DNA of 38,247 bases. It comes from Methylococcaceae bacterium (GTDB taxonomy: Bacteria > Pseudomonadota > Gammaproteobacteria > Methylococcales > Methylomonadaceae). Made by a program: the position numbers and the translations under genes. Location of the stretch: NCBI GenBank assembly GCA_020048335.1, contig JAIFMS010000040.1, positions 1 to 38,247 on the forward strand. Direction: 5' to 3'. Below are positions 1,241 to 31,812 of the stretch, piece by piece. Each line of letters begins with the position of its first letter. The stretch's first letter is position 1. The notes below the pieces were generated by a model, which was given only the letters and a program-made list of their open reading frames with translations, had not been told where the DNA came from and made no database searches.

Positions 1241-4051
1241 ATGGAAAAAACTTACGCGCCCCAATCAATCGAACAACGCTGGTATCGCCATTGGGAAAAA
1301 AACGATTATTTTGCTGCGCAAGGCGCAGGGCAATCCTATTGCATTATGATTCCACCCCCGAATGTGACAGGCAGTCTGCACATGGGTCATGCTTTTCAAG
1401 ATACGATTATGGACGCATTGATTCGTTATCACAGAATGCAAGGACGCAATACGCTGTGGCAGACAGGCACTGACCATGCAGGCATTGCCACGCAAATGGT
1501 GGTGGAACGATTAGTCAATGCGGAAGGAAAAACACGCCACGACTATGGTCGAGAAGCCTTTGTGGAAAAAATTTGGCAATGGAAGGCGCAATCGGGCGGC
1601 ACAATTACTCGACAATTACGGAGGATGGGGTCATCGCTGGATTGGGAGCGTGAACGTTTTACCATGGATGCGGGAATGTCGGCGGCAGTACAAGAAGTTT
1701 TTATCCAGCTTTATGAAGAAGGGCTGATTTATCGCGGCAAACGCTTGGTGAATTGGGACCCTGTTCTGCATACGGCTGTGTCGGATTTAGAAGTATTGTC
1801 CGAAGAAGAACAAGGTTTCATGTGGCACATTCGCTATCCTTTATCGAATAAAACAGGGCATTTGATTGTGGCAACCACTCGCCCTGAAACCATGCTCGGC
1901 GATGCGGCGATTGCGATTCATCCCAGTGATGAGCGATACAAACACTTAATCGGTGAATTGGTTGAAATTCCTTTAACAGGACGTTTTATTCCGATTATTG
2001 CCGATGACTATGTAGACCCTGAGTTTGGGACAGGCTGCGTAAAAATTACCCCCGCACATGATTTTAATGATTATGACGTGTGGCTACGGCATCGTGATAC
2101 TGCTGCAATTGCCGATTTACCGCACAGCGGTTTGATTAATATCCTGACCGCCGATGCCACTATTCGCACTAATCACGACGATGAATACAATTTGATTCCT
2201 TTGCTTTATCACGGGTTAGACCGCTTTGAAGCGCGGAAACAAATTGTGGCGGATTTAAAAGCCTGTAATTTGCTAGAAAAAGTCGCTGACCACAAATTGA
2301 TGGTGCCGCGTGGTGACCGTTCAGGGTCAGTGATTGAGCCGTTTTTAACCGACCAATGGTATGTCAAAGTCGATGCACTGGCAAAACCTGCGATTGCAGC
2401 GGTGGAAAATGGTGATATTAAATTTGTGCCTGATAACTGGAAAAACACTTATTTTGAATGGATGCGCAATATTCAAGATTGGTGTATTTCGCGGCAAATT
2501 TGGTGGGGACACCGCATTCCTGCGTGGTATGACGAGCATGGCAATGTGTATGTTGGGGAATCTGAAGCGGCTATTCGCCAAAAACATCACTTAAGTGCAG
2601 ATTATCTTTTAACCCAAGATGAAGATGTTTTAGATACTTGGTTTTCCTCCGCGCTATGGCCTTTCTCAACTTTGGGCTGGCCTGAAAAAACCCCTGAATT
2701 GGCAAAACATTACCCCACTAGCGTGTTAGTGACAGGGTTTGACATCATTTTCTTCTGGGTCGCACGCATGATTATGATGGGACTAAAATTTCAAGGACAA
2801 GTGCCGTTTAAAGAAGTCTATATTCACGGCTTAGTGCGCGATGCGGAAGGACAGAAAATGTCCAAATCCAAAGGCAATGTACTCGACCCGATTGATTTAA
2901 TTGATGGCATTGACTTAGAGTCATTAGTTGAAAAACGCATTTCAGGGATGATGCAGCCGCATTTGGCGAAAAAAATCGAGCAAGCCACTCGCAAACAATT
3001 CCCAGACGGCATTACTGCACACGGCACAGACGCATTGCGCTTTACCTTTGCCTCACTTGCTTCTACGGGGCGAGATATTCGTTTTGACCTTGCCCGCAGC
3101 GAAGGCTATCGCAATTTTTGTAATAAATTGTGGAATGCCGCGCGTTATGTGCTGATGAATACCGAAGAACACGATAACGGCTTGACAGGGGCGTTATGTG
3201 CCTATACACAAGTTGACCATTGGATATTAGCTCGTTTGCAGCAAACCATTGCCAGCACTTGTGAAGCGATTGAAAGTTATCGGTTTGATTTGGCCGCACA
3301 ATTGCTGTACGAATTTACTTGGAATGAATATTGTGATTGGTATTTAGAATTAACAAAAGTGGCTTTGCAATCAGATAATGAAACCTTGCAACGTGGCACA
3401 CGCAAAACGCTGCTCACGGTATTGGAAAATATTCTGCGGCTGTTGCATCCATTAATGCCGTTTATTACTGAAGAAATTTGGCAGCGTGTTGCGCCGTTGG
3501 TAGGCATTGTTGACAACACAATTATGTTGCAACCGTATCCTAAAGCCGATGACAGTTTAATCAATACCCAAGCGATTGCTGAAATTGATTGGTTAATGAA
3601 ATGTATTTTAGGGGTTCGGCAAATTCGCGGTGAAATGAATATTGCCCCAAGCAAACCGTTACCTGTTTTAATCCAAAATGGCTCTGTGAAAGACCATTTG
3701 TTTTTAACCCATCATCATGTTTATTTGCAAAAATTAGGGCGATTAGCATCGGTGACTTGGCTGGATAAAAATGCAATTGTTCCTGAATCAGCCATTGCTT
3801 TAGTGGGGGAAATGAAAATTTTAATTCCCATTGCAGGCTTAATTGATAAACAAGCCGAGTTAGCTCGATTGGAAAAGGAGATGCAAAAAATTCAGAAAGA
3901 GTTGCCGCGTATTGTTGGTAAATTAGGCAATCCTGGTTTTGTGGAAAAAGCCCCGCCGCAGGTGTTAGAAACTGAAAAAGCAAAATTGGTTGCGTTAGAA
4001 TCTTCGCTGGCAAATTTGCAGCAGCAGTTTGTTAAAATTAGTGCGTTGTAA
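1241..4051 (+). CDS. valS: Valyl-tRNA synthetase
   Basis: A 936-residue class I aminoacyl-tRNA synthetase that charges tRNA-Val in the cytoplasm. The HIGH-type motif appears as [15 protein letters not shown] (about residues 38-52) and the KMSKS motif as [10 protein letters not shown] (about residue 540). Between them lies the CP1 editing domain, with [18 protein letters not shown] and [18 protein letters not shown]. The C-terminus has the anticodon-binding helical domain and a coiled-coil arm ([16 protein letters not shown], about residues 870-920) typical of ValRS. The length fits bacterial ValS. The ATG at 1241 gives the conserved [15 protein letters not shown] start, although no strong ribosome binding site precedes it. 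It stands alone between repeat elements. Confidence 0.98.
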
Positions 4052-4063
4052 ACTGCCCACCCT

Positions 4064-4096
4064 AGACCTTCCAGGTTTTTAAAACCTGTCAGGTCT
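4064..4096. repeat. 33-bp palindrome (RAYT-associated), downstream copy
   Basis: This is the first of three copies of a 33-base palindrome that starts AGACCTTCCAGGTTTT. The left arm matches the other copies, but the right arm reads AAAACCTGTCAGGTCT, so the stem has a two-base mismatch. It sits 13 bases after the valS stop and 30 bases beyond the end of the minus-strand transposase gene, marking one edge of the element. Confidence 0.88.
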
Positions 4097-4126
4097 GGCA
4101 TCCCCAGATAATTTTGTTTTTTATTG

Positions 4127-4732
4127 TCAAAATATATCTTCTTCAATCAAATGCCTAATAGTGCTGTCATCTAATAATTTATGATATTTTTCAAAGGTTT
4201 GCAAATTGCCAAACCATTGCAAGACTTGGCGCGATTCAATACGGCTGTGTTTTTGTTGGTAAATGGTTTGATAGGATGAATAGGGATAAGTGCGAAAGTT
4301 ATCGGTAAAGCCGTGTTTTTGCGGGTTGCGATGAATATAGCTGATGAGGTGAATAAAATAGCGGTCGGAATCAATAAGAATTCGATTGAAATTTTTTTCA
4401 AATAAGCTGCCGGAACGATGATAGGCTTTATTAATAGCTTTGGTATAAGCGTTAAAAAAATTTGAAAAGGCTTGCGAATAATTGCGCGGGGTTAGACCTT
4501 CCAGGTTTTTAAAACCTGGAAGGTCTAGCTTCGGGTTAATCCTCACCAACAAATGAAAGTGATTACGCATTAAACAATAGGCGTAGGTATCGGCAATTGG
4601 ATAAATATAATGAATATACAATTTAAAAAAATAAGCGTAATTCCGTTCTTCCAGAAACAGGTTTTCGCCATTATTGCCGCGATTGTAAATGTGGTAATAC
4701 TGACCGCTGATTAAAGGAATTTCTTTTGACAT
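4127..4732 (-). CDS. REP-associated tyrosine transposase (RAYT, Y1/HUH family)
   Basis: A 201-residue single-strand DNA transposase-like enzyme of the IS200/Y1_Tnp superfamily. The N-terminus (SGQYYHIYNRGNNGENLF) is typical, the metal-binding HUH motif appears as MRNHFHLLV, and the nucleophilic tyrosine is expected in ISYIHRNPQKHGF. The segment YHRSGSLFEKNF is also characteristic. The ATG at 4732 is preferred because GGAG lies 9 bases upstream; an upstream in-frame extension would run through the palindrome at 4745-4777. RAYTs are thought to recognise and spread REP-like hairpins. Here 33-bp palindromes lie just outside both ends of the gene and a third lies inside it (4494-4526), adding 11 in-frame codons between the HUH and tyrosine motifs. 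Confidence 0.92.
   Translation of the reverse strand: MSKEIPLISGQYYHIYNRGNNGENLFLEERNYAYFFKLYIHYIYPIADTYAYCLMRNHFHLLVRINPKLDLPGFKNLEGLTPRNYSQAFSNFFNAYTKAINKAYHRSGSLFEKNFNRILIDSDRYFIHLISYIHRNPQKHGFTDNFRTYPYSSYQTIYQQKHSRIESRQVLQWFGNLQTFEKYHKLLDDSTIRHLIEEDIF
4494..4526. repeat. 33-bp palindrome inside the RAYT coding sequence
   Basis: The second copy of the palindrome, a near-perfect inverted repeat, lies entirely within the transposase gene. Its length is a multiple of three and it carries no stop in the reading frame used, so it is translated as LDLPGFKNLEGL on the minus strand. It falls in a variable loop between the HUH motif and the helix that precedes the catalytic tyrosine. Confidence 0.9.
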
Positions 4733-7183: not shown

Positions 7184-8713
7184 CTAAATTTCTAAACGTT
7201 TTAACAAACGAAAAAAATTCCCTTTATCAATCCCCAAACTTTGCGCCGTTTTAGTTTTATTCTGTTGATTTTCCAACAGTTTTTGTAAAATTAATTGGCG
7301 GGAAAATTGGTCAATCTGCTGTTTAAAACTAAGACTTTCATCCAAAGAAACTGCACTAGGCGAAACAACAGGCGGTGAATTAAACAACGGCTGAATGTCT
7401 AAATGCTGCACAAAAATACTCACCACCCGCTTGTCCCGTCCTTGTGGAGTAATCGCTTTTAATGCCGCCCGACTTAATAAATGCTCCAATTCGCGAATAT
7501 TACCCGGCCAATCGTAATGGAGTAACGCCTGTTTTGCCTCATTATCTAAACGCAACCCTTGTAATGCTAACCGTTGTTTGTTTTTTTCCAAAAATAACCC
7601 TGCCAACAGCAACACATCTTTGCCGCGCTCGCGCAATGGTGGAACTTGAATCGGATATACCGCTAACCGATGGTATAAATCGGAGCGAAATTGCCCTTCT
7701 GCGATGCCTTTTTGCAGATTGCGATTCGTCGCGGCAATCACTCGGCTATCAACTTTATGATAACTATCACAACCCACCCGCTGAATTTCGCCATTTTGCA
7801 ACGTGCGCAAAATTTTTGCCTGTAAATTTAACGACAATTCGCCAATTTCATCTAAAAAAATCGTGCCACCATTGGCTAATTCAAATTTACCGCGCCTATC
7901 GCTGACCGCCCCTGAAAACGCCCCTTTCTGATGCCCGAATAATTCACTTTCGGCAATGGTTTCAGGCAATGCCGCACAATTGACATACACCATCGGTTGC
8001 CGCGCCCGTTTCGATTGGCTGTGAATTTGTTGCGCGACCAATTCTTTGCCCACTCCTGTTTCACCGAGGATTAAAACGGCTAAATCCGATTGTGCCAGCA
8101 CCGCAATTTCTTGTTGCAAAGCGCGCATTTGTGGGCTGTTTCCTAGCATCTCGACCCGTGTTGTTTCAGCGGGTAAGGTTTGCTGCACTTGTTTGACTTG
8201 CGATTCTAAAGACACAATCAGATTGGCCGCTTTCACCGTTGCTTCGGTTAAACTCACAAACGTTTGTAAAGCTTGATGATTTATCACATCAAAGGTTTGC
8301 GGATTCAGCGCGTCCAAAGTCAACACCCCCCACGCCTGTTCATCAATATATAACGTTACGCCCATGCAATCGTGAACGTGCAGTTGATTAGCCGTATTTT
8401 CGATTAACCCATCATAAGGGTCAGGCAAGGTTGAATCCGCCGCAAATCGCACAATATGACGCTGCGCTAAAATATGAGCTAATCGTGGTTGTTCGCTGAT
8501 TAAAAATCGCCGACCTAAGGTATCTTCACTCAGACCTGCTATCGCCAGTGGCACTAAAAAGGGCGGTTCTAATTTTAATAACGCACAGGCATCACAAGGA
8601 AATAATTGCTGTAAGGTTTGTAAGAGATGTTGATAGCGTTTTTCAGTCGATAAATGACGCGATAAATCATTCACGATAGCAATAAAGGCGTGGAAAAATG
8701 GCTCAGTAGTCAT
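7184..8713 (-). CDS. norR: Nitric-oxide-responsive sigma-54 activator NorR
   Basis: A 509-residue bacterial enhancer-binding protein that senses NO and activates sigma-54 promoters. The N-terminal GAF domain (about 10-165) has the NorR-specific VRFAADSTLPDPYDGLI stretch that supplies Asp ligands of the non-haem iron. The central AAA+ domain has Walker A GETGVGKE, the sigma-54-contact loop as GAFSGA (usually GAFTGA, a conservative change) and Walker B GGTIFLDEIGEL. The C-terminus has a Fis-type helix-turn-helix (KTKTAQSLGIDKGNFFRLL). The ATG at 8713 is chosen over an upstream TTG at 8725; neither has a good ribosome binding site. The gene diverges from hcp, and the first NorR box overlaps its start codon, which suggests autoregulation. 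Confidence 0.93.
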   Translation of the reverse strand: MTTEPFFHAFIAIVNDLSRHLSTEKRYQHLLQTLQQLFPCDACALLKLEPPFLVPLAIAGLSEDTLGRRFLISEQPRLAHILAQRHIVRFAADSTLPDPYDGLIENTANQLHVHDCMGVTLYIDEQAWGVLTLDALNPQTFDVINHQALQTFVSLTEATVKAANLIVSLESQVKQVQQTLPAETTRVEMLGNSPQMRALQQEIAVLAQSDLAVLILGETGVGKELVAQQIHSQSKRARQPMVYVNCAALPETIAESELFGHQKGAFSGAVSDRRGKFELANGGTIFLDEIGELSLNLQAKILRTLQNGEIQRVGCDSYHKVDSRVIAATNRNLQKGIAEGQFRSDLYHRLAVYPIQVPPLRERGKDVLLLAGLFLEKNKQRLALQGLRLDNEAKQALLHYDWPGNIRELEHLLSRAALKAITPQGRDKRVVSIFVQHLDIQPLFNSPPVVSPSAVSLDESLSFKQQIDQFSRQLILQKLLENQQNKTKTAQSLGIDKGNFFRLLKRLEI

Positions 8714-8719
8714 TTTGAC
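8709..8719. promoter_or_regulatory. NorR enhancer site 1
   Basis: GTCATTTTGAC is a perfect GTCA-N3-TGAC dyad, fitting the GT-N7-AC NorR consensus. It overlaps the norR start codon (8711-8713), so binding here could also repress norR. Confidence 0.78.
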
Positions 8720-8728
8720 AATCAAGTT

Positions 8729-8739
8729 GTTAAATTGAC
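8729..8739. promoter_or_regulatory. NorR enhancer site 2
   Basis: GTTAAATTGAC fits GT-N7-AC and keeps the TGAC half-site. It is 20 bases (about two helical turns) from site 1. Confidence 0.75.
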
Positions 8740-8754
8740 AGCATTATAGTCGTT

Positions 8755-8765
8755 GTTAATTAGAC
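8755..8765. promoter_or_regulatory. NorR enhancer site 3
   Basis: GTTAATTAGAC fits GT-N7-AC. It is 26 bases from site 2 and completes a set of three, the number found upstream of E. coli norV. Confidence 0.72.
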
Positions 8766-8789
8766 AGTGCTGTTTATTTTTAATAATAA

Positions 8790-8802
8790 AATCAAGCAGT
8801 TT
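8790..8802 (+). promoter_or_regulatory. IHF-like site between enhancers and promoter
   Basis: AATCAAGCAGTTT matches the IHF consensus WATCAANNNNTTR at all but the last position, and is preceded by an A/T-rich run. Its place between the NorR boxes and the -24 element is where a DNA bend would bring the activator to sigma-54 polymerase. Confidence 0.6.
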
Positions 8803-8807
8803 CGCTG

Positions 8808-8823
8808 TGGCACAGGAACTGCA
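8808..8823 (+). promoter_or_regulatory. Sigma-54 (-24/-12) promoter of hcp
   Basis: TGGCACAGGAACTGCA has a perfect TGGCAC -24 box and a -12 GC with the required 10-base gap between GG and GC. Transcription would start near 8834, leaving a leader of about 47 bases before hcp. Confidence 0.85.
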
Positions 8824-8837
8824 CTCTTTGAGCTAAT

Positions 8838-8852
8838 AGACCTGCGTGGTCT
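8838..8852 (+). other. Hairpin at the 5' end of the hcp leader
   Basis: AGACC-TGCGT-GGTCT forms a 5-bp stem about 4 bases from the predicted transcript start and is followed by GTTTTTCT. It may protect the 5' end of the mRNA. The short stem makes a real terminator unlikely. Confidence 0.45.
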
Positions 8853-8880
8853 GTTTTTCTTAACTCAAAGGAGACTTGTT

Positions 8881-10542
8881 ATGTTTTGTTATCAATGTGA
8901 ACAAACCACCCGTTCAGCCACAGGCGATGGTTGCGTAACAGCAAAAGGCGTGTGCGGAAAAGACAGCACCACCGCCAATTTACAAGATTTATTAGTGTAT
9001 GCCATCAAAGGGATTGCCCAATACGCTAAACGGGCGCGGGCGTTAGGGAAAACCGATAACGCAGCCGATGGTTTTATGCTGTTTGGGTTGTTTACTACCT
9101 TGACCAATGTGAATTTTACTGCCAGTCGTTTTGTTAGTTTATTGCAAGAAGCTGTGCAAATTCGTGACCGCGTAAAAGCCTTATATGAAACTGCCGCCGC
9201 TGAACAAGGGATAACCCCTGAAACCTTGCACGGTGCAGCCGCATGGGTTCCTGCCACAACGCAGGCGGATTTAGCATTGCAAGCCCGTTGGGGGGCGATT
9301 GATAAAGATGCAGACATCGTGGGTGCGGATATTGTCGGACTGCGGGCGATGGTGATTTATGGGATTAAAGGATTAGCCGCGTATGCCCATCATGCGCACG
9401 TTTTAGGCTATGAAGATGAAAGCGTTTATACAGGTTTGGAAAATGCACTGGATTTTCTTGCCACCGACCCCACCGATGCTGAGGCGTTATTAGGCTGGAG
9501 TTTGGAAGTAGGCGCAATCAACTTAAAAGTCATGGAAATGTTGGATGCTGCTAATACAGGCAATTTTGGCGAACAACAACCTGGGCAAGTGCGCATTTCA
9601 CACGTCAAAGGCAAAGCGATTTTAGTCAGCGGACATGATTTGAAAGATTTGGTGGATTTACTGGAACAAACCAAAGACAAAGGCATTAATGTTTACACGC
9701 ACGGCGAATTATTGCCGGCGCACGCTTATCCCAAATTAAAAGCTTATCCGCATTTAGTGGGCAATTACGGTGGCGCGTGGCAAAATCAAACCGCAGATTT
9801 TGCCAATTTCCCGGGAGCTATCGTGATGACTTCTAATTGTTTAGTTGAACCTGCGGCGGCGTATCGGCAACGCATCTTTACCGCAGGGCCTGTCGGTTGG
9901 CAAGGGGTTCGGCATATTAGCAATGGCGATTTTACCCCTGTAATTCAAGCGGCATTAGCTTTAGCAGGCTTTCAAGACGATGCGGAAGAAAAAAGTCTGA
10001 CCGTTGGTTTTGGTCATCATGCAGTATTAGGTGTAGCGGATAAAGTGATTGAGGCGGTTAAAACAGGAGCGATTAAACATTTCTTCTTAATCGGTGGTTG
10101 TGATGGAGCTGCGCCAGGACGTAATTATTATTCGGATTTAGCCGAAATGACCCCGCCTGATACCATCGTAATGACCCTAGGTTGTGGGAAATACCGCTTC
10201 CATGAACATGAGTTCGGCACTATCGGCGGCATTCCACGTTTGTTAGACATCGGGCAATGCAATGATGCGTATTCGGCGATTAAAATTGCCAGTGCGTTAG
10301 CGGGCGCGTTTGATTGTGAAGTCAATCAATTGCCGTTGTCTTTGATGGTGTCGTGGTTTGAACAAAAAGCGGTGGCAGTGTTGTTGAGTTTATTGTCACT
10401 AGGGATTCGTGGGATTCATTTAGGCCCTACCTTGCCAGCGTTTTTAACCCCGAATTTGCTGAACATTTTAGTGGAAAAATTTGATATTCGTCCAAACGGC
10501 GAACCTGCGGCAGATTTAGCACTGGCTTTAAAAGCAGCTTAA
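8881..10542 (+). CDS. hcp: Hybrid cluster protein (hydroxylamine reductase / NO-detoxifying)
   Basis: A 553-residue cytoplasmic iron-sulfur enzyme. The N-terminal cysteines follow C-x2-C-x11-C-x6-C ([16 protein letters not shown]...C), the class II arrangement of E. coli Hcp. Hybrid-cluster ligands can be recognised: H in SGHDLKDL, E in [10 protein letters not shown] in [15 protein letters not shown] (persulfide Cys), [15 protein letters not shown], and the E/K pair in WFEQKAV. Hcp enzymes reduce hydroxylamine in vitro and are NO reductases and S-nitrosylases in E. coli. The ATG at 8881 is preceded by AAGGAG at the right distance; the upstream in-frame extension runs through the sigma-54 promoter and is not credible. 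No hcr-type reductase follows, so its electron donor must be encoded elsewhere. Confidence 0.97.
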
Positions 10543-17171: not shown

Positions 17172-17721
17172 TTTGTCCACCTTTTGGATAATTCCAAGTT
17201 AGGTTTAAATGCAAATCAAGAATAAATCAGTTTGCATTTTAGACACAAGACCTTGACACAGTGATGACAGTCTTGCTACACCGATATAAATTACCTAGTG
17301 GTAATAACTCTCTTGCTAGTTTTGTGCCACTTTTATAACTCATTGAATTTATTTATATAATAAAATCCACTGTTGTTTGGCTTGTTGTTTTTTTGCACCA
17401 AAACGATGCTTTTTTGTCACTTTATCCGCTTTTTATAAACAAATGGCAAAAAATAGCCTCAGCATCAGTTTAACATTTTGACAACCTGAAACTGATTGCC
17501 AATGACAAGGTGGGCTTTTTGTATTTCTGACTCGAACGGATAAATTTCATTATAAAAACAGACTGTTTTTGTGCCTTGTTAAAGCGTGTATGATGGTGCT
17601 AAACCGCTACAGATTGCTCATTATAGCGTGGTAGCCGTACATTACTTTCACTTAAAAACAGCTCTGTTAAATCGTACAAAAGCTCAATTTTCAGTAGATA
17701 CTATCGCCATAGAGTTTGATT
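17172..17721. other. Long intergenic region upstream of the HD-GYP genes
   Basis: This 550-base, A/T-rich spacer separates the divergent small membrane protein gene and the first HD-GYP gene. I see no convincing gene, tRNA or riboswitch. A reading frame from 17586 to 17798 overlaps the HD-GYP start and looks random. A TATGAT box at 17588-17593 could be a -10 element but has no good -35 partner. Confidence 0.5.
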
Positions 17722-19053
17722 ATGAATCAAGAAAAATCATCTACGCTAGAAATAAAAATGCCTATCTTAAAATTAAAAATTGGGATGTATGTAAGTAGGC
17801 TTGATAAACCGTGGGCAGAATCATCATTTTTATTCCAAGGCTTTTTAATCAGCAATAATGCGCTTATCAAAAAACTGGCACAGGAATGTGAATATGTTTA
17901 TATTGATAGAACAAAACAGGATAATCAGCTAATCAATGAAAAAGTAGCCGATTTTTCGCCCACAACTGAAAAAACTGAACAAGGGTTTGGGCATTTATTG
18001 CAGCGTTGCAAAGAGTTTTTAGGCTTGCGCAAAACAGAACCACCGAGCGAACCTGTTTATCAAAAAACCAATCGTTTGAAGGATATTGTTGATTTAACGG
18101 TTAAAACGGATTCGATTATTTCCCCACGCAAACAACTGCCGTATCACAAAGAAATCAATTTTGCCAAACAAACGCATGCGCATATTGAGCATCTAATGCA
18201 CGAGTTTACCTCGCAAGTCAAAGAAGGTGGCACGATTGATATTTTAATTGCTCGTCCTACCATTTATGATTGTATGGCAAGTGTGTTGCGCTCACCTGAT
18301 GCGATGGTATTGGCAACCCGCTTAAAAAATAAACATAAATCAGTTTGGCAACGCAGTATGAATGATTGTGTATTAGCCTTAAGTTTAGGGCGTTATCTGA
18401 ATTTGCATGAAGATGATTTAATTACGCTGGGGTTGTCTGCTTTATTACACGACATTGGAAATTTGAAAATTTCTCGTCAAGCGATAGAAGCGGCAGAAAA
18501 TAAAATAGAATTAATAAAAACCCATACGCAATTAGGGTATGATATTTTAGTCAATTGTCCGGGTGAGTTAGGGAAAGTTGTAGCTGATGTGGCTTATTCG
18601 CATCACGAGCAGTTAAATGGCTTTGGTTTTCCACGCGGTTTATATGGCGAGCAAATATCGGCTTTTACGCGCATTGTCAGCATTGTCGATGTCTATAATA
18701 CCTTAACGTTAGACACCCAAAACAGACAGGGAATGACCCATTATGACGCAATAACGACCATGTTAAAAAAAAGCGATTCCCAATTTGATGAAACCTTATT
18801 AAATAGTTTTAATCAATGTATTGGGATTTATCCTATTGGTTGCGTTGTTGAAATGAATACAGGTGAGCTTGCGTTGGTCGTTGAAATTGATCCCAAGCAT
18901 AAATTAAGACCGACCGTTTTATTATTAACCGATGCCAATAAAACCCCTTGTGCAAAACAAGTAGTTGACTTAGCTCAAACAATGACAAAAGATGAAATGA
19001 CTTTTTCAATTAAAGCCATTGTTCGTCCTGAAAAATACGGGATTCAAATTTAA
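17722..19053 (+). CDS. HD-GYP domain protein with DUF3391, degenerate catalytic site
   Basis: A 443-residue protein of the c-di-GMP phosphodiesterase family. Residues about 12-150 form a DUF3391 domain (LKIGMYVSRLDKPWAESSF.FQGF), and about 205-390 an HD-GYP domain. Visible motifs are HDIGN (243-247), His268, SHHEQLNGFGFPRGL (294-308) and VDVY with Asp323. Several catalytic positions are altered: the first metal His is Arg211 (WQRSMN instead of WQHSMN), the Lys after HDIG is Asn247, and the D-G-x-G-Y-P motif reads NGFGFP. It is therefore probably weak or inactive as an enzyme and may bind c-di-GMP or dimerise with its neighbour. The ATG at 17722 has AGAG 7 bases upstream. A paralogue follows 68 bases later. 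Confidence 0.88.
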   Translation: MNQEKSSTLEIKMPILKLKIGMYVSRLDKPWAESSFLFQGFLISNNALIKKLAQECEYVYIDRTKQDNQLINEKVADFSPTTEKTEQGFGHLLQRCKEFLGLRKTEPPSEPVYQKTNRLKDIVDLTVKTDSIISPRKQLPYHKEINFAKQTHAHIEHLMHEFTSQVKEGGTIDILIARPTIYDCMASVLRSPDAMVLATRLKNKHKSVWQRSMNDCVLALSLGRYLNLHEDDLITLGLSALLHDIGNLKISRQAIEAAENKIELIKTHTQLGYDILVNCPGELGKVVADVAYSHHEQLNGFGFPRGLYGEQISAFTRIVSIVDVYNTLTLDTQNRQGMTHYDAITTMLKKSDSQFDETLLNSFNQCIGIYPIGCVVEMNTGELALVVEIDPKHKLRPTVLLLTDANKTPCAKQVVDLAQTMTKDEMTFSIKAIVRPEKYGIQI

Positions 19054-19121
19054 TATTGAATAACCCTTTAAAAAATTTGACTATTTTCTAAAAAACCATG
19101 ACCCCCCTAGCAGGTCTTTTT

Positions 19122-20432
19122 ATGAACTCAGAAACTATCGTTGTTAACGAAGTTAAAATTTCCGTCTCTGATTTACGATTGGGAATGTATGTATGTCGGC
19201 TTGATAAACAATGGGTTGAGTCATCGTTTGTATTTCAAGGCTTTATCATTAACAATGAAAAGCTTATTGAAAAACTGGCAAAAGAATGTAGCCATGTTTA
19301 TATTGATGAAACAAAAAGTGTCTCCAGTCAAGCCCTTAGCTCAGTCGTCACGATTAAAAAGCCTGAAAAAAAACAAAGCTCTTTTTTTAATTTTGGTTCT
19401 TTATTTGCGCGAAAAAAAGCCACCCAAATTACGCGCAAAGAAACTTATCAGCTTTGTGATATTGTTGATCACAAAATTATTGCCCAAACGATTCGGCCGC
19501 CACAAAAACTTCACAGTTTTGATGAAGAGTTAAACAGCGCAAAACAAGCCCATGCCAGTGCTGGGGCTTTGATAAAAGACTTTATGCTCAATGTCAAACA
19601 AGGGGGGCCAATTGATATTATTGTGGCAAAACACGCCGTCTATGATTGTATGACAAGCATTTTGCGCTCGCCTGATGCGATGCTGTTGCTGAATCGCTTA
19701 AAAAGTAAAGATTTTAATTTGTGGCAACACAGTATGAATGTCAGCGTGTTAGCCATTAATTTAGGACGCTATTTGAATCTGCATGATGATGAATTGGTAT
19801 TGCTCGGCTTATGCGGTATGTTTCACGATATTGGTAAATTACGTTTATCAAAAGCGACAATGGATTCAACCACAGATAAAGTAAAATTAATAGAAACCCA
19901 CACTAAGCTTGGACAAGATATTTTATTAAAGTGTATGGGACAGTTAGCCGAAGTGGCAGCTGAAGTGGCTTATTCCCATCATGAAAAACTAGACGGCACG
20001 GGCTATCCACGCGGTTTGGGTGGCTCACAAATCTCACCTTATACACGGATGATTTCCATCGTAAATCTGTACGATAATTTGATTACCAATAAGGGCAGTA
20101 AGCAGGGATTGACCCATTATGACGCAATGGTCGCGCTATTGGGAAAAGCCCCCCATCACTTGGATCAAACGCTGGTTGACAGCTTCAACCAGTGCATGGG
20201 GGTTTATCCTGTTGGCAGTATTGTGGAATTAAACACTGGCGAGGTTGCAATGGTGGTGGAAGAAAATGAAAAACAACGCTTGCGTCCTAAAATTATGCTT
20301 TTAACAACCGCCAGCAAACAGCAACGTGAAAAAACGGTGGTGAATTTAGCCGATAATAAATTTACTACCGCAGCTGAATCCTATTTTATCAAGGCCATTG
20401 TCCGCGCTGAACAATATGGGATTAAACTCTAG
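19122..20432 (+). CDS. HD-GYP domain protein with DUF3391, paralogue of the preceding gene
   Basis: A 436-residue protein collinear with the upstream gene: DUF3391 (about 10-145) followed by HD-GYP (about 198-390). Here the first His is kept (WQHSMN, His203), as are HDIGK (235-239), His260 and SHHEKLDGTGYPRGL (285-299). The late Asp ligand of IxDxYD is replaced: ISIVNLYDNL has Asn315. HD-GYP enzymes hydrolyse c-di-GMP to pGpG or GMP at a two- or three-metal centre; loss of this Asp may change metal content or activity. The start at 19122 is preferred over 19098, since it gives the same N-terminal length as the paralogue. It ends 5 bases from the convergent sseA. Confidence 0.9.
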   Translation: MNSETIVVNEVKISVSDLRLGMYVCRLDKQWVESSFVFQGFIINNEKLIEKLAKECSHVYIDETKSVSSQALSSVVTIKKPEKKQSSFFNFGSLFARKKATQITRKETYQLCDIVDHKIIAQTIRPPQKLHSFDEELNSAKQAHASAGALIKDFMLNVKQGGPIDIIVAKHAVYDCMTSILRSPDAMLLLNRLKSKDFNLWQHSMNVSVLAINLGRYLNLHDDELVLLGLCGMFHDIGKLRLSKATMDSTTDKVKLIETHTKLGQDILLKCMGQLAEVAAEVAYSHHEKLDGTGYPRGLGGSQISPYTRMISIVNLYDNLITNKGSKQGLTHYDAMVALLGKAPHHLDQTLVDSFNQCMGVYPVGSIVELNTGEVAMVVEENEKQRLRPKIMLLTTASKQQREKTVVNLADNKFTTAAESYFIKAIVRAEQYGIKL

Positions 20433-27088: not shown

Positions 27089-27991
27089 TTATTTTTCGCT
27101 CTGTACTTGATTTCTACCGTTATGCTTGGCTAAAAAAAGTTGTTGATCCGCTTTGTCAATCAGCTGCATCGGCTGCATGGTTGCACTGGGAATCGTAGCC
27201 GCTGCCCCCAAGCTAATGGTAATTTGCCCTAATGTCGTGTTTTTATTTTCAATCGCTAACGCTTCAATGGCGCGGCGAATAGTCTCGGCGATTAACAATG
27301 CCTCTTGTAATTTTGTATTAGGCAGAATAACAACAAACTCTTCACCACCATAACGGGCAACAAAATCACTGGCACGTTTTGCCAATTTATCAATGGTGGC
27401 GGCGACTTGCTTTAAGACCTGATCACCTGCCAAATGCCCATAGGTATCATTTAAGGCTTTAAAATAATCTATATCAATCATTAAAACCGCTAAATATCCC
27501 TCCATTCGCAAAGCTCTATGCCATTCATCAACCAAAACTGTTTCAAATTTTAGTCGATTAGCAATTTGTGTTAAGCCATCTAAACAGGCTTGGGCGCGTA
27601 AAAGTTGATAATACTGATACAGTTGAACGTGTGTTTTAACCCTAGCTAACAATACCTGTGTATTAAAAGGCTTGGTAATATAATCCACCGCTCCTAATTC
27701 CAAGCCTTTAACAATTTCAGATTCTTCCACTTTCGCGGTTAAAAAAATAATCGGAATCGCTTCCCAATCCGTGTTTTCTTTAATCCTGCGACAGGTTTCA
27801 AAGCCATCAATTCCTGGCATCATAATATCCAGCAAAACTAAATCTACCTTGGTAATATCCAATGTTTTTAGAGCTTGCAAGCCATTTTGGGCAATCACAA
27901 CGCGATAATTATGTTGTCGCAAAATCGTACCTAACACACGAATGTTATCTGAATTGTCATCAACAATAAGGATACTGGATTTTTCATTCAT
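27089..27991 (-). CDS. Response regulator with GGDEF domain (diguanylate cyclase)
   Basis: A 300-residue protein with an N-terminal receiver (about 5-122; acidic pair DD at 11-12, phospho-acceptor Asp55, Thr85, Lys107) and a C-terminal GGDEF domain (about 132-298). The active-site loop is RYGGEEF (213-219), a catalytically competent variant. RASD (206-209) sits exactly five residues before GGEEF, so the product-inhibition I-site RxxD is present. Phosphorylation should promote dimerisation and synthesis of c-di-GMP from GTP. The start codon overlaps the stop codon of the hybrid kinase gene (ATGA, 4 bases), so the kinase is the likely partner. Confidence 0.95.
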   Translation of the reverse strand: MNEKSSILIVDDNSDNIRVLGTILRQHNYRVVIAQNGLQALKTLDITKVDLVLLDIMMPGIDGFETCRRIKENTDWEAIPIIFLTAKVEESEIVKGLELGAVDYITKPFNTQVLLARVKTHVQLYQYYQLLRAQACLDGLTQIANRLKFETVLVDEWHRALRMEGYLAVLMIDIDYFKALNDTYGHLAGDQVLKQVAATIDKLAKRASDFVARYGGEEFVVILPNTKLQEALLIAETIRRAIEALAIENKNTTLGQITISLGAAATIPSATMQPMQLIDKADQQLFLAKHNGRNQVQSEK

Positions 27992-30900
27992 AGAGATTTC
28001 TCTAACTGATTGATTATTTTGATAAATTCATCAAGTATTTTAGGTAAACCTGATAAATCAAACAATTCTGCCGCCTGAATAAACTGCTCTGTCCACTGTT
28101 GCAACCGTGTGTCATGGTGCTGTTGGGCGAGTATTTTAAGCTGCTCGCCCACGTCAATCATTTGATCCACATCAAAAAAACCCGATTTTCGCCATTTAAT
28201 AATTAAAGGAACATACTCTTCATTCACTATTGCAAAAAGTTCAGCAGGTTTTATCAGCGGCTCAATTATCTGCGGTGTAAAAATCTTAACAGGTGCGACG
28301 GTTAAAGGCGCAGGTTTATTATCACACGCTAAAAAACGCTCTAATGTTGCAATCAGTTTATCTTTATTCAGCGGTTTCTCCAACTGCACATCATAAGCGG
28401 GCGGTAATTGCCTTTCTGTGACAGTTAAGACAGACGCTGTAATCATAATGATAGGTGTCTTTAGATACTGTGGGAGAGTTCTGATTTTACGACAAATACT
28501 ATCCCCGTCCTCGCCTGGCAAGCGTCTGTCCATTAAAATTAAATCAAAAGAATGTTTTTCAAGCAATTGTAATGCTTGAGTCCCTTCTTCGGCTTCATAA
28601 AGCGTCAACTGACTAAATTCAACTAAATACGATTTAATCAATTGGCGATTAAATAAAATATCATCAACTAATAAAAGCGTGGCAGGCTGAAAAGAAATAA
28701 TTTCAGGCGGCGGTGGTAATGGCAGAATTGTTGTTGCTTGTAAAGAAGTACTGACTTCCACATTCGGTAAAATTAGGGCAAAACAGCTTCCTTTGCCTAT
28801 TTCACTGGTCACGGCAATACTGCCTTGCATCACATCCAATAACCGCTGACAAATCGTTAAACCCAATCCTGTACCGCCATAAACAACACTTTGATTGTCT
28901 TGCTGCGTAAATGCTGCAAATATTTTTTCTTGTTGGTCTTGTGCAATGCCAATCCCGCTGTCGATAATTTCAAGCCGTAAAGTAACCCGATTTATAGTAG
29001 GACTTGGCTCAATCACAGCCTTTATTTTAACAAACCCTGCCTCAGTAAACTTAACCGCATTGCCGACTAAATTTAATAACAGCTGCCGCAAGCGAATTTC
29101 GTCTAACCTTAAGGAAGCGGGAATTTTTTCATCTATTTGAATAGAAAAATCAATCTCTTTTTCGAGGCATTTTTGTGAAAAAATAATTTTAATATCGTCT
29201 AACAAATTTTTTAATGAAACAGCGTTATATTGCAAGGTTAATTTTCCTGCCTCAATTTTTGATAAATCCAAAATATCGTTAATTAATTGCAACAAAGTTT
29301 TGCCACTGCGGGCAATTGCGTCTAAATAATAGCGTTGTGTGGCATCGGTAATTAAATTATTTAAAATTGAACTAAAGCCTAAGATGGCATTCATGGGCGT
29401 ACGAATTTCATGGCTCATATTGGCGATAAATTCACTTTTTGCTTGATTGGCTTGCACGGCGGCTGTTTTGGCTTCCCGCAGCGCAATTTCTGCCAGTCGA
29501 TATTCGGTAATATCATGAATTAAAACCAATAAATGTGGCTCTTGATTGCCACTAAAACTGACAAAATGATAATCAAGCCACACTTCTTGTTCGGGCGTTA
29601 AATGGATATGCGTTTCATGCCGCTGAGGAGTTTTCTCGCACAAACACGCTTGAGCTGCTTCAAATAATTGACTGGTTTGCCAAAAATCAATCGCGTATAA
29701 ATTTTCATTTAATACCTCAGCCACGGTTTTGTGTAACGTTTGGGCTGCTGCTTCATTACAAGTAACACATTGCCCTGAGGCACTAAATACTTTTACCCCA
29801 ACGGGCGAATGCGAAATAATTTTTTGATTCAAATCTAATAAATCGTTAATTTGCTGTTCAGCGTGTTTACGTTGGGTAATATCACTAAACACAACCACCG
29901 CGCCTGTCACCAGTCCTTTGTCAATAATAGGATTGCTGGTGTATTCAACGGGAAAAAAACGGTTATCTTTCCGCCATAAAACCTCATCGGTTATTTTATG
30001 ACTGGAAGCCTTGGTAAAGGCTAAATACATAGAACAGGCTTCAATAGGATAAGGCGAACCATCGGCATAGCTATGATGGATTAACGAATGGGGCGAGCGA
30101 TTCATTAATTCATCCGCAGAATAACCTAATAATTGACACGCCGCATTATTGATAAAAGTCGTTTTGCCTTCGATGTCTAAACCAAAAATACCTTCGCTGG
30201 TGCTGTTTAAAATTAACCGATTGTGAACTTCGGACTTTGCCAAAAGAAGTAACGTATTTTGCAAGCGTTGCTCGGTTTGTTTGCGGTGTGTTACATCACG
30301 CGCAATCGCATAAATCACATTTTCTTCCACATTATGATGCACACTCCACGATAACCAACGAACCGAGTTATTTTTACACAGATAGCGATTTTCAAAATTT
30401 AGGGTAAAGCCGCGTTTTTGAGAAGGTTGAGTCATCACTTTTTGGGTCATCTCACTATCGTCTGGGTGAACAAACTCAAAATAGGAATGTAAAAAAATCT
30501 CCTCGCTTGGATAACCCAAAACTTGCGAAAACGCAGGATTAATCACTTTAAAACAATTGTCTGCATCAATAATGCACATTAAATCAGCAGCGGTGTTAAA
30601 AAATTTAAAATACTGCTCCCGTTCGGTTTTTATTTTTTTACGCTCGGTAACATCAATTAAAATACCCAGCGTTTGCAAAGGCTGACCTTGTAAATCAAAA
30701 TAAGTTTTGCATTTATTATTGACATATTTAACCGTGCCATCTGCCAGTAATAAGCGATGCGTCAGCTCATAATCTTGCTGGCTGGCCAAATGTTGTGCAT
30801 AGCTTTCTTCAACCATTGCCAAGTCATCTGGATGAACAAAGGTTAAAAAAGCCACATAAGAAGGGATAACTTCGTTGGTTTGTTTGGCAAAAAGTCGATA

Positions 30901-31812
30901 CAGCTCATCTGACCACTGGATTGTGTGGTATTGATTATCCACTAACCAATACCCAAGATGAGCAATTTCTTGGGCTTGTTTTAGCATCATCTCACTGGTT
31001 TTTAATGCTTCCATGGCTTGTTTGGTTTGGCTTATATCACGGACAAAAGCGCAGTTATATTCATTGCCTTCATAATTAATAAAATTGGCAGTAATTTCCA
31101 CCCAAATCAGTGAGCCATCTTTTTTCAAAACAGACACTTCAAAGCACAAGCTTTTATGTTTTTTCAAATCTTGCCAATGCAGTGTCCAAGCTTCCTTATC
31201 ATGGGTAGGATTGATATTTTCGATACTTAAGGATAAAAACTCCTCTAGTTCATAACCGAGCATTTCACTTGCCGCGTGATTAGCGTACAAAATCGAAGCA
31301 TCAGCTTTAATCCAATAAATCCCCTCATTGGCCGAATCAATTGAAAATTGTGTTAAGCGCAGTTTTTTCTCAAGCGTAGAACGTTGTTTTATCTGCTCGG
31401 TTAATTGTTCGGCTGTTTCCTGTAATTGGGCAAACGTGGGTAAATTTAGAAAAAAAGGAATTTTTCGCCCTAATTCAATGGCAGTGATAACCGAAACAAC
31501 CGCCGTTATTGCCATAATGAAGCCTTCTAGCCAATACAGCGGCAGCCAAATCACCACGATTGCCATCAGATGAGTGGCTGCACAAGCCAAAATAAACAGC
31601 GCGAATAACCAGAATAAATGTTGCTGCATTAAAACCCGATGTTTATGGCGAATAAACACATAAATGGTGGCAGGAATAGCAATATAGGCGATGGCAATTA
31701 AGGCGTTAGAAAGGATGTGAATAGCCAATAACTCTTTTTGCCAGCCTAGGCAATAACCATGCGCTGTGGTCGCTGTGGAAAATAAAAATAAATTAAGGAT
31801 TTTTTCTAACAT
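27988..31812 (-). CDS. Hybrid sensor histidine kinase with ethylene-receptor-like membrane domain and five PAS domains
   Basis: A 1274-residue kinase. The N-terminal 120 residues have three helices and match the ETR1-type ethylene-binding domain of cyanobacteria and plants: HGYCLGWQ (18-25), SNALIAIAYIAIP (35-47) and FILACAATHL (73-82). Cys77 and His81 correspond to the copper ligands Cys65 and His69 of ETR1 and Tyr43 to Tyr32, but Asn36 replaces Asp25. Five PAS domains follow (about 150-265, 275-390, 397-510, 523-648, 660-770), then HisKA with His801 (NMSHEIRTPMN), an HATPase domain (GNAVKFTE, DSGIGI, GGTGLGL) and a receiver with Asp1095 (about 1042-1162). The helical C-terminal 100 residues lack a recognisable HPt His motif. 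It overlaps the GGDEF regulator gene. Ligand identity is inference. Confidence 0.9.
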   Translation of the reverse strand: MLEKILNLFLFSTATTAHGYCLGWQKELLAIHILSNALIAIAYIAIPATIYVFIRHKHRVLMQQHLFWLFALFILACAATHLMAIVVIWLPLYWLEGFIMAITAVVSVITAIELGRKIPFFLNLPTFAQLQETAEQLTEQIKQRSTLEKKLRLTQFSIDSANEGIYWIKADASILYANHAASEMLGYELEEFLSLSIENINPTHDKEAWTLHWQDLKKHKSLCFEVSVLKKDGSLIWVEITANFINYEGNEYNCAFVRDISQTKQAMEALKTSEMMLKQAQEIAHLGYWLVDNQYHTIQWSDELYRLFAKQTNEVIPSYVAFLTFVHPDDLAMVEESYAQHLASQQDYELTHRLLLADGTVKYVNNKCKTYFDLQGQPLQTLGILIDVTERKKIKTEREQYFKFFNTAADLMCIIDADNCFKVINPAFSQVLGYPSEEIFLHSYFEFVHPDDSEMTQKVMTQPSQKRGFTLNFENRYLCKNNSVRWLSWSVHHNVEENVIYAIARDVTHRKQTEQRLQNTLLLLAKSEVHNRLILNSTSEGIFGLDIEGKTTFINNAACQLLGYSADELMNRSPHSLIHHSYADGSPYPIEACSMYLAFTKASSHKITDEVLWRKDNRFFPVEYTSNPIIDKGLVTGAVVVFSDITQRKHAEQQINDLLDLNQKIISHSPVGVKVFSASGQCVTCNEAAAQTLHKTVAEVLNENLYAIDFWQTSQLFEAAQACLCEKTPQRHETHIHLTPEQEVWLDYHFVSFSGNQEPHLLVLIHDITEYRLAEIALREAKTAAVQANQAKSEFIANMSHEIRTPMNAILGFSSILNNLITDATQRYYLDAIARSGKTLLQLINDILDLSKIEAGKLTLQYNAVSLKNLLDDIKIIFSQKCLEKEIDFSIQIDEKIPASLRLDEIRLRQLLLNLVGNAVKFTEAGFVKIKAVIEPSPTINRVTLRLEIIDSGIGIAQDQQEKIFAAFTQQDNQSVVYGGTGLGLTICQRLLDVMQGSIAVTSEIGKGSCFALILPNVEVSTSLQATTILPLPPPPEIISFQPATLLLVDDILFNRQLIKSYLVEFSQLTLYEAEEGTQALQLLEKHSFDLILMDRRLPGEDGDSICRKIRTLPQYLKTPIIMITASVLTVTERQLPPAYDVQLEKPLNKDKLIATLERFLACDNKPAPLTVAPVKIFTPQIIEPLIKPAELFAIVNEEYVPLIIKWRKSGFFDVDQMIDVGEQLKILAQQHHDTRLQQWTEQFIQAAELFDLSGLPKILDEFIKIINQLEKSL

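Follow-up and report, generated by a model that had tools for sequence, protein, structure and literature searches.

A methanotroph hybrid kinase with an ETR1-type membrane domain and a covarying Asp25–Lys91 pair replaced by Asn/Met

What might an ETR1-type membrane domain do when the key aspartate of its ethylene-binding site has become an asparagine? The question is raised by a hybrid kinase gene in the window, the whole 38,247-nucleotide stretch of DNA analysed here, which comes from the 2.7-Mb draft genome of a methanotroph (Methylococcales, near Methylobacter). An earlier note had read the kinase as carrying an ETR1-like ethylene-binding fold that keeps its copper ligands, has Asn for Asp, and is coupled to a GGDEF regulator, so that a gas- or copper-type signal could reach c-di-GMP. 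As a whole this interpretation is partly supported. The features concerned are these:

27,988–31,812, minus strand: hybrid histidine kinase, 1274 aa, ATG start (open reading frame and Pfam scan)
31,444–31,731, minus strand: ETR1_N (PF25487), residues 28–123 (Pfam)
31,705–31,707, minus strand: Asn36 codon AAC, at the ETR1 Asp25 position (alignment)
31,582–31,584, minus strand: Cys77 codon, at the position of the Cu(I) ligand Cys65 of ETR1 (alignment)
31,570–31,572, minus strand: His81 codon, at the position of the Cu(I) ligand His69 of ETR1 (alignment)
31,513–31,515, minus strand: Met100 codon ATG, at the ETR1 Lys91 position (alignment)
29,500–31,341, minus strand: PAS-domain array, residues about 158–771 (Pfam PAS, PAS_3, PAS_4 and PAS_9 stretches)
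28,762–29,442, minus strand: kinase core, HisKA and HATPase_c, with phospho-acceptor His801 and N and G boxes (Pfam and motifs)
28,342–28,674, minus strand: C-terminal REC, Asp1095 (Pfam and motif)
27,089–27,991, minus strand: REC-GGDEF regulator, 300 aa (Pfam and motifs)
27,988–27,991, minus strand: ATGA overlap of the kinase stop and the REC-GGDEF start (sequence)

The kinase consists of an ETR1-type membrane domain followed by PAS repeats, HisKA, HATPase_c and a C-terminal REC (Pfam), and all of the hallmarks of a hybrid kinase are present (His801, LVGNAVKF, DSGIGI, GGTGLGL and Asp1095). The PAS repeats and the REC are not mentioned in the earlier note. The profile search places the proposed ethylene-binding fold near the N-terminus in ETR1_N, at residues 28–123, and in no unrelated family; at 92.8 bits, with the cut-off at 27 (E = 1.7e-26), the match is not a chance one. 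The three N-terminal helices expected of ETR1_N are also predicted by AlphaFold2 (residues 26–60, 64–89 and 93–122; mean pLDDT 89.4), with Cys77 and His81 placed one turn apart on the confidently predicted helix 64–89. Counted from the ends of the predicted helices, N36, C77, H81 and M100 would lie at a similar depth. To our knowledge, no structure of the ethylene-binding domain has been solved. Neither the domain by itself nor a profile built from 89 homologs retrieved a solved structure of the family in sequence searches, and fold searches returned only generic matches to helical bundles, none at E <= 0.001.

The residues of the site were assigned by a profile-based alignment and by MAFFT addition to 89 homologs, using an ETR1 reference sequence whose numbering agrees with D25, C65 and H69 in PMC12643061. 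The window domain is 28% identical to that of ETR1, and the two alignments agree on D25 to N36, Y32 to Y43, I35 to I46, P36 to P47, I62 to I74, C65 to C77, H69 to H81 and K91 to M100. Both copper ligands are thus retained, as had been claimed, together with the Tyr (Tyr43) and the F–I pair (F73-I74) of the site. By the criterion quoted in PMC11819568, seven residues including Asp25 are required for ethylene binding; the window kinase keeps six of the seven, the missing one being Asp25. The reported substitution of Asp25 by Asn36 is therefore real, but it does not stand alone: the partner Lys91 is Met100, a change that the earlier note does not record, so that the Asp25–Lys91 pair is absent and the meaningful unit is the pair rather than the single residue.

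How common Asn is at this position was assessed in 306 distinct domains (the window domain and 305 relatives), a sample that is not an unbiased census and part of which was gathered with a profile of Asn-type domains masked as X at positions 25 and 91 (ETR1 numbering). The Asp/Lys pair occurs in 264 of the 306 domains and Asn at position 25 in 23, the latter comprising nine Asn/Asp, eight Asn/Glu, three Asn/Met, two Asn/Lys and one Asn/Ala pair. Non-canonical pairs in this sample come mostly from Methylococcales. When position 25 is Asp or Glu, position 91 is Lys or Arg in 269 of 274 domains, with five exceptions; when it is Asn, position 91 is something else (Glu, Asp, Met or Ala) in 21 of 23.

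Such counts are inflated by relatedness, and trees were consequently built without columns 25 and 91. On a quick IQ-TREE tree a model of dependent change was preferred over an independent one (LR 30.4, p 4e-6), and the preference was similar (LR 35.5, p 3.7e-7) on a larger FastTree tree, where position 25 changed 10 times and position 91 changed 11 times. Correlated evolution of the two positions was recovered on 12 of 12 bootstrap trees, with p at most 7e-7. When the acid at 25 was compared with 38 similarly variable columns as a control, Lys91 came first (LR 31.9), the next column reaching 14.9. By MI-APC, the corresponding window pair 36–100 ranks third to fourth of 6216 column pairs and, with stronger reweighting, leads the distant pairs; other top pairs (32–97 and 49–115) lie in the same parallel register between helices 1 and 3. 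A stricter independent-pairs test had just two pairs on well-supported branches to work with, too few for a decision; with so short an alignment, many forks of the tree are unresolved. Positions 25 and 91 evolve together on the tree. Among nearest neighbours, the Asn/Met pair of locus L034 stands beside the Asp/Met pair of L041, a case which suggests that the Lys can be lost first.

Two other sources of the covariation were considered and rejected: an artefact of retrieval, in view of the masking of both positions in the profile used to collect further domains, and common descent, in view of the tree-based tests (p about 4e-6 and 4e-7) and the column-wise control. Separately, window residues 44 and 79 (ETR1 F33 and A67), on helices 1 and 2 and adjoining the Cu(I) ligands, covary strongly; they form the top pair in one covariation ranking and, at 80% reweighting, in a second.

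In plant ETR1, D25N reportedly lowers ethylene affinity while leaving a working receptor; Azhar et al., in PNAS in 2023, are said to have found this, to have noted that Asn variants occur in nature, and to have proposed an Asp25–Lys91 polar bridge. Asn at this position is thus already known in kind, and the additions made here are the covariation of the bridge and the loss of both of its sides in the window protein. Judged by the residues present, three classes of pair appear to exist: the charged Asp/Lys; Asn/Glu or Asn/Asp, in which the carboxylate would have moved to helix 3; and the neutral Asn/Met, Asn/Ala and His/Leu. The window kinase and its single ortholog carry the neutral Asn/Met pair. 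The Cu(I) ligands and other site residues persist in nearly all of the domains with Asn at 25 (C65 in 22 of 23, H69 in 21 and Y32 in 22), so that a loss of function is not the most economical explanation. One Asn/Asp domain of a GGDEF protein (L045/L242), in which the His ligand is Gln and the site Pro is also lost, is probably decaying or changed in function. Another ethylene-type domain (L031, G016:C34:28985-29266) has a TAG in frame close to the beginning of helix 1.

The claimed four-base overlap of the kinase with a GGDEF regulator is present, as ATGA. The regulator carries REC Asp55, a GGEEF motif at residues 215–219 and, five residues upstream, an RxxD I-site (RASD), from which an active, feedback-inhibited diguanylate cyclase is predicted. 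The proposed coupling to c-di-GMP accordingly holds in the window, where this predicted cyclase overlaps the kinase, but it does not extend to the one ortholog. That ortholog, the nearest one, is 63% identical over the query and also keeps six of the seven binding residues. The idea that kinase and REC-GGDEF form a conserved pair was checked there and rejected, as no REC-GGDEF gene adjoins the ortholog, and the output link may therefore be recent. The ortholog lies near a hemerythrin-domain gene (L326:7762-8289); a further kinase of that locus (1387-4212) seems, by eye, to begin with a hemerythrin-like segment. An EBD-PAS-GGDEF architecture is found in 17 of 20 charge-swapped or His/Leu domains versus 29 of 140 canonical ones, mostly within one clade. 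For that reason the GGDEF excess among variants was not counted as independent evidence. By analogy with Azospirillum, in which ethylene lowers c-di-GMP (PMC11819568), a link from gas to c-di-GMP is plausible for the window kinase. Elsewhere in the window (17,716–20,432), two neighbouring DUF3391-HD genes likely encode c-di-GMP phosphodiesterases.

Several known systems resemble this one in part. Plant ETR1 and cyanobacterial SynEtr1 share the three-helix N-terminal domain, the Cys and His Cu(I) ligands, the Tyr/Ile/Pro/Ile site residues and a kinase after the domain, and ETR1 also has a receiver; the window kinase differs from both in having Asn/Met for Asp25/Lys91 and a PAS array for GAF. 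AzoEtr1 of Azospirillum brasilense is likewise a kinase with an ethylene domain, and its stop codon overlaps the start of the gene for a response regulator, but it keeps all seven binding residues and its regulator has no output domain, whereas the window regulator is a GGDEF protein (PMC11819568). The Arabidopsis ETR1 D25N mutant and the natural Asn variants have the same Asp-to-Asn change at the same position; the mutant, however, keeps Lys91, while in the window kinase the partner is also replaced, and this replacement is evolutionarily coupled. Methanotroph EBD-PAS-GGDEF proteins with Asn/Glu, Asn/Asp or His/Leu pairs are similar in combining a non-canonical pair and retained Cu(I) ligands with a c-di-GMP output. 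Their cyclase is in the same chain, unlike that of the window kinase, and many of them have the carboxylate moved to position 91, where the window kinase has none.

We consider it somewhat probable (roughly 0.55) that the window kinase senses ethylene or a related small gas in a Cu(I)-dependent manner, with a lower affinity or an altered coupling to kinase output, and feeds c-di-GMP through the REC-GGDEF protein. The three N-terminal helices would hold a Cu(I) site with Cys77 and His81 as its ligands. A charged pair of Asp25 on helix 1 and Lys91 on helix 3 would lie level with this site in canonical receptors; in the window kinase this pair would have been turned into the neutral Asn36/Met100. 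Ethylene or a related small gas may still be bound via Cu(I), with the affinity lowered or the coupling to the kinase changed, and the signal would pass through the PAS domains and the kinase to the REC-GGDEF protein, most plausibly by phosphotransfer, and so alter c-di-GMP. The family, the residues, their covariation, the gene overlap and the intact catalytic motifs are established by the analysis; we infer the Cu(I) and gas binding, the change in affinity and the phosphotransfer partner.

It is also possible, though unlikely, that the membrane domain is an anchor that binds no ligand and leaves sensing to the PAS domains. The kinase has several of these, it lacks one residue that ETR1 needs to bind ethylene, and the genome encodes a second, canonical receptor domain. 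Yet both orthologs, at 63% identity, keep six of the seven binding residues, other Asn lineages keep them too, and the degenerate family members found here lose several binding residues together. A Cu(I) sensor, in which a Cys77/His81/Met100 site would report copper, the metal that sets methane oxidation, rather than a gas, seems to us more doubtful still. Met100 is a soft ligand at a predicted depth similar to that of Cys77 and His81, Met occurs at position 91 with Asn (three domains) and with Asp (two) in more than one lineage, and the relatives are methanotrophs with genes for particulate methane monooxygenase, a copper enzyme; but the other Asn variants have Glu, Asp or Ala at 91, which are poor Cu(I) ligands or none, Lys can become Met by a single base change, and the femtomolar Cu(I) affinity of ETR1 (PMC12643061) is ill-suited to reporting changes. 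Least probable, in our judgement, is a changed site with a preference for some other small molecule, such as acetylene, CO or a further gas that methanotrophs encounter: the polar surroundings of the Cu(I) site do change class and the hosts meet several such gases, but nothing points to a particular ligand. A Cu(I)-dependent gas receptor with changed affinity or coupling remains our preferred reading.

The same genome contains a second ethylene-type domain with all canonical residues (Asp/Lys) in an EBD-GGDEF protein (L325:9567-11717; AlphaFold2 mean pLDDT 91.2); this paralog is not mentioned in the earlier note. ETR1_N is found in 138 of 237 genomes of the window's family and in 21 of the 38 genomes from a second family of the order; elsewhere, it exceeds the cut-off in 12 of 369 genomes of a class sample, and it occurs in 28 of 398 genomes sampled across the phylum and in 22 of 337 from Alphaproteobacteria. 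The order is methanotrophic: genes of the pmoA/amoA family are present in 53 of 61 relatives, among them the window's genome, whose copy (G000:C64:6681-7356) is split over two frames by a frameshift or an assembly error. Relatives with names are Methylobacter, Crenothrix and Methylococcales, which makes Methylomonadaceae the probable family. Also in the window, at 7,184–10,542, a hybrid-cluster protein gene (Prismane) stands next to a divergent NorR-type GAF sigma-54 activator, likely a nitric-oxide response pair. In the literature searched, no paper linking ETR1-type domains with methanotrophs was found.

The covariation of positions 25 and 91 is independent evolutionary evidence that Asp25 and Lys91 act as a pair, and the Asn/Met, Asn/Glu, Asn/Asp and His/Leu domains are natural double variants for tests of binding and signalling. 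We tentatively propose, as a possibility, that at least three electrostatic classes exist at this one membrane contact, and that methanotrophs may use the non-canonical ones, in some genomes alongside canonical copies, as Cu(I) gas receptors differing in affinity or gating, largely to control c-di-GMP. The frequency of such receptors in methane oxidisers, and their often being connected to c-di-GMP, suggest that they sense a gas or copper in a group of organisms that matters for methane emissions.
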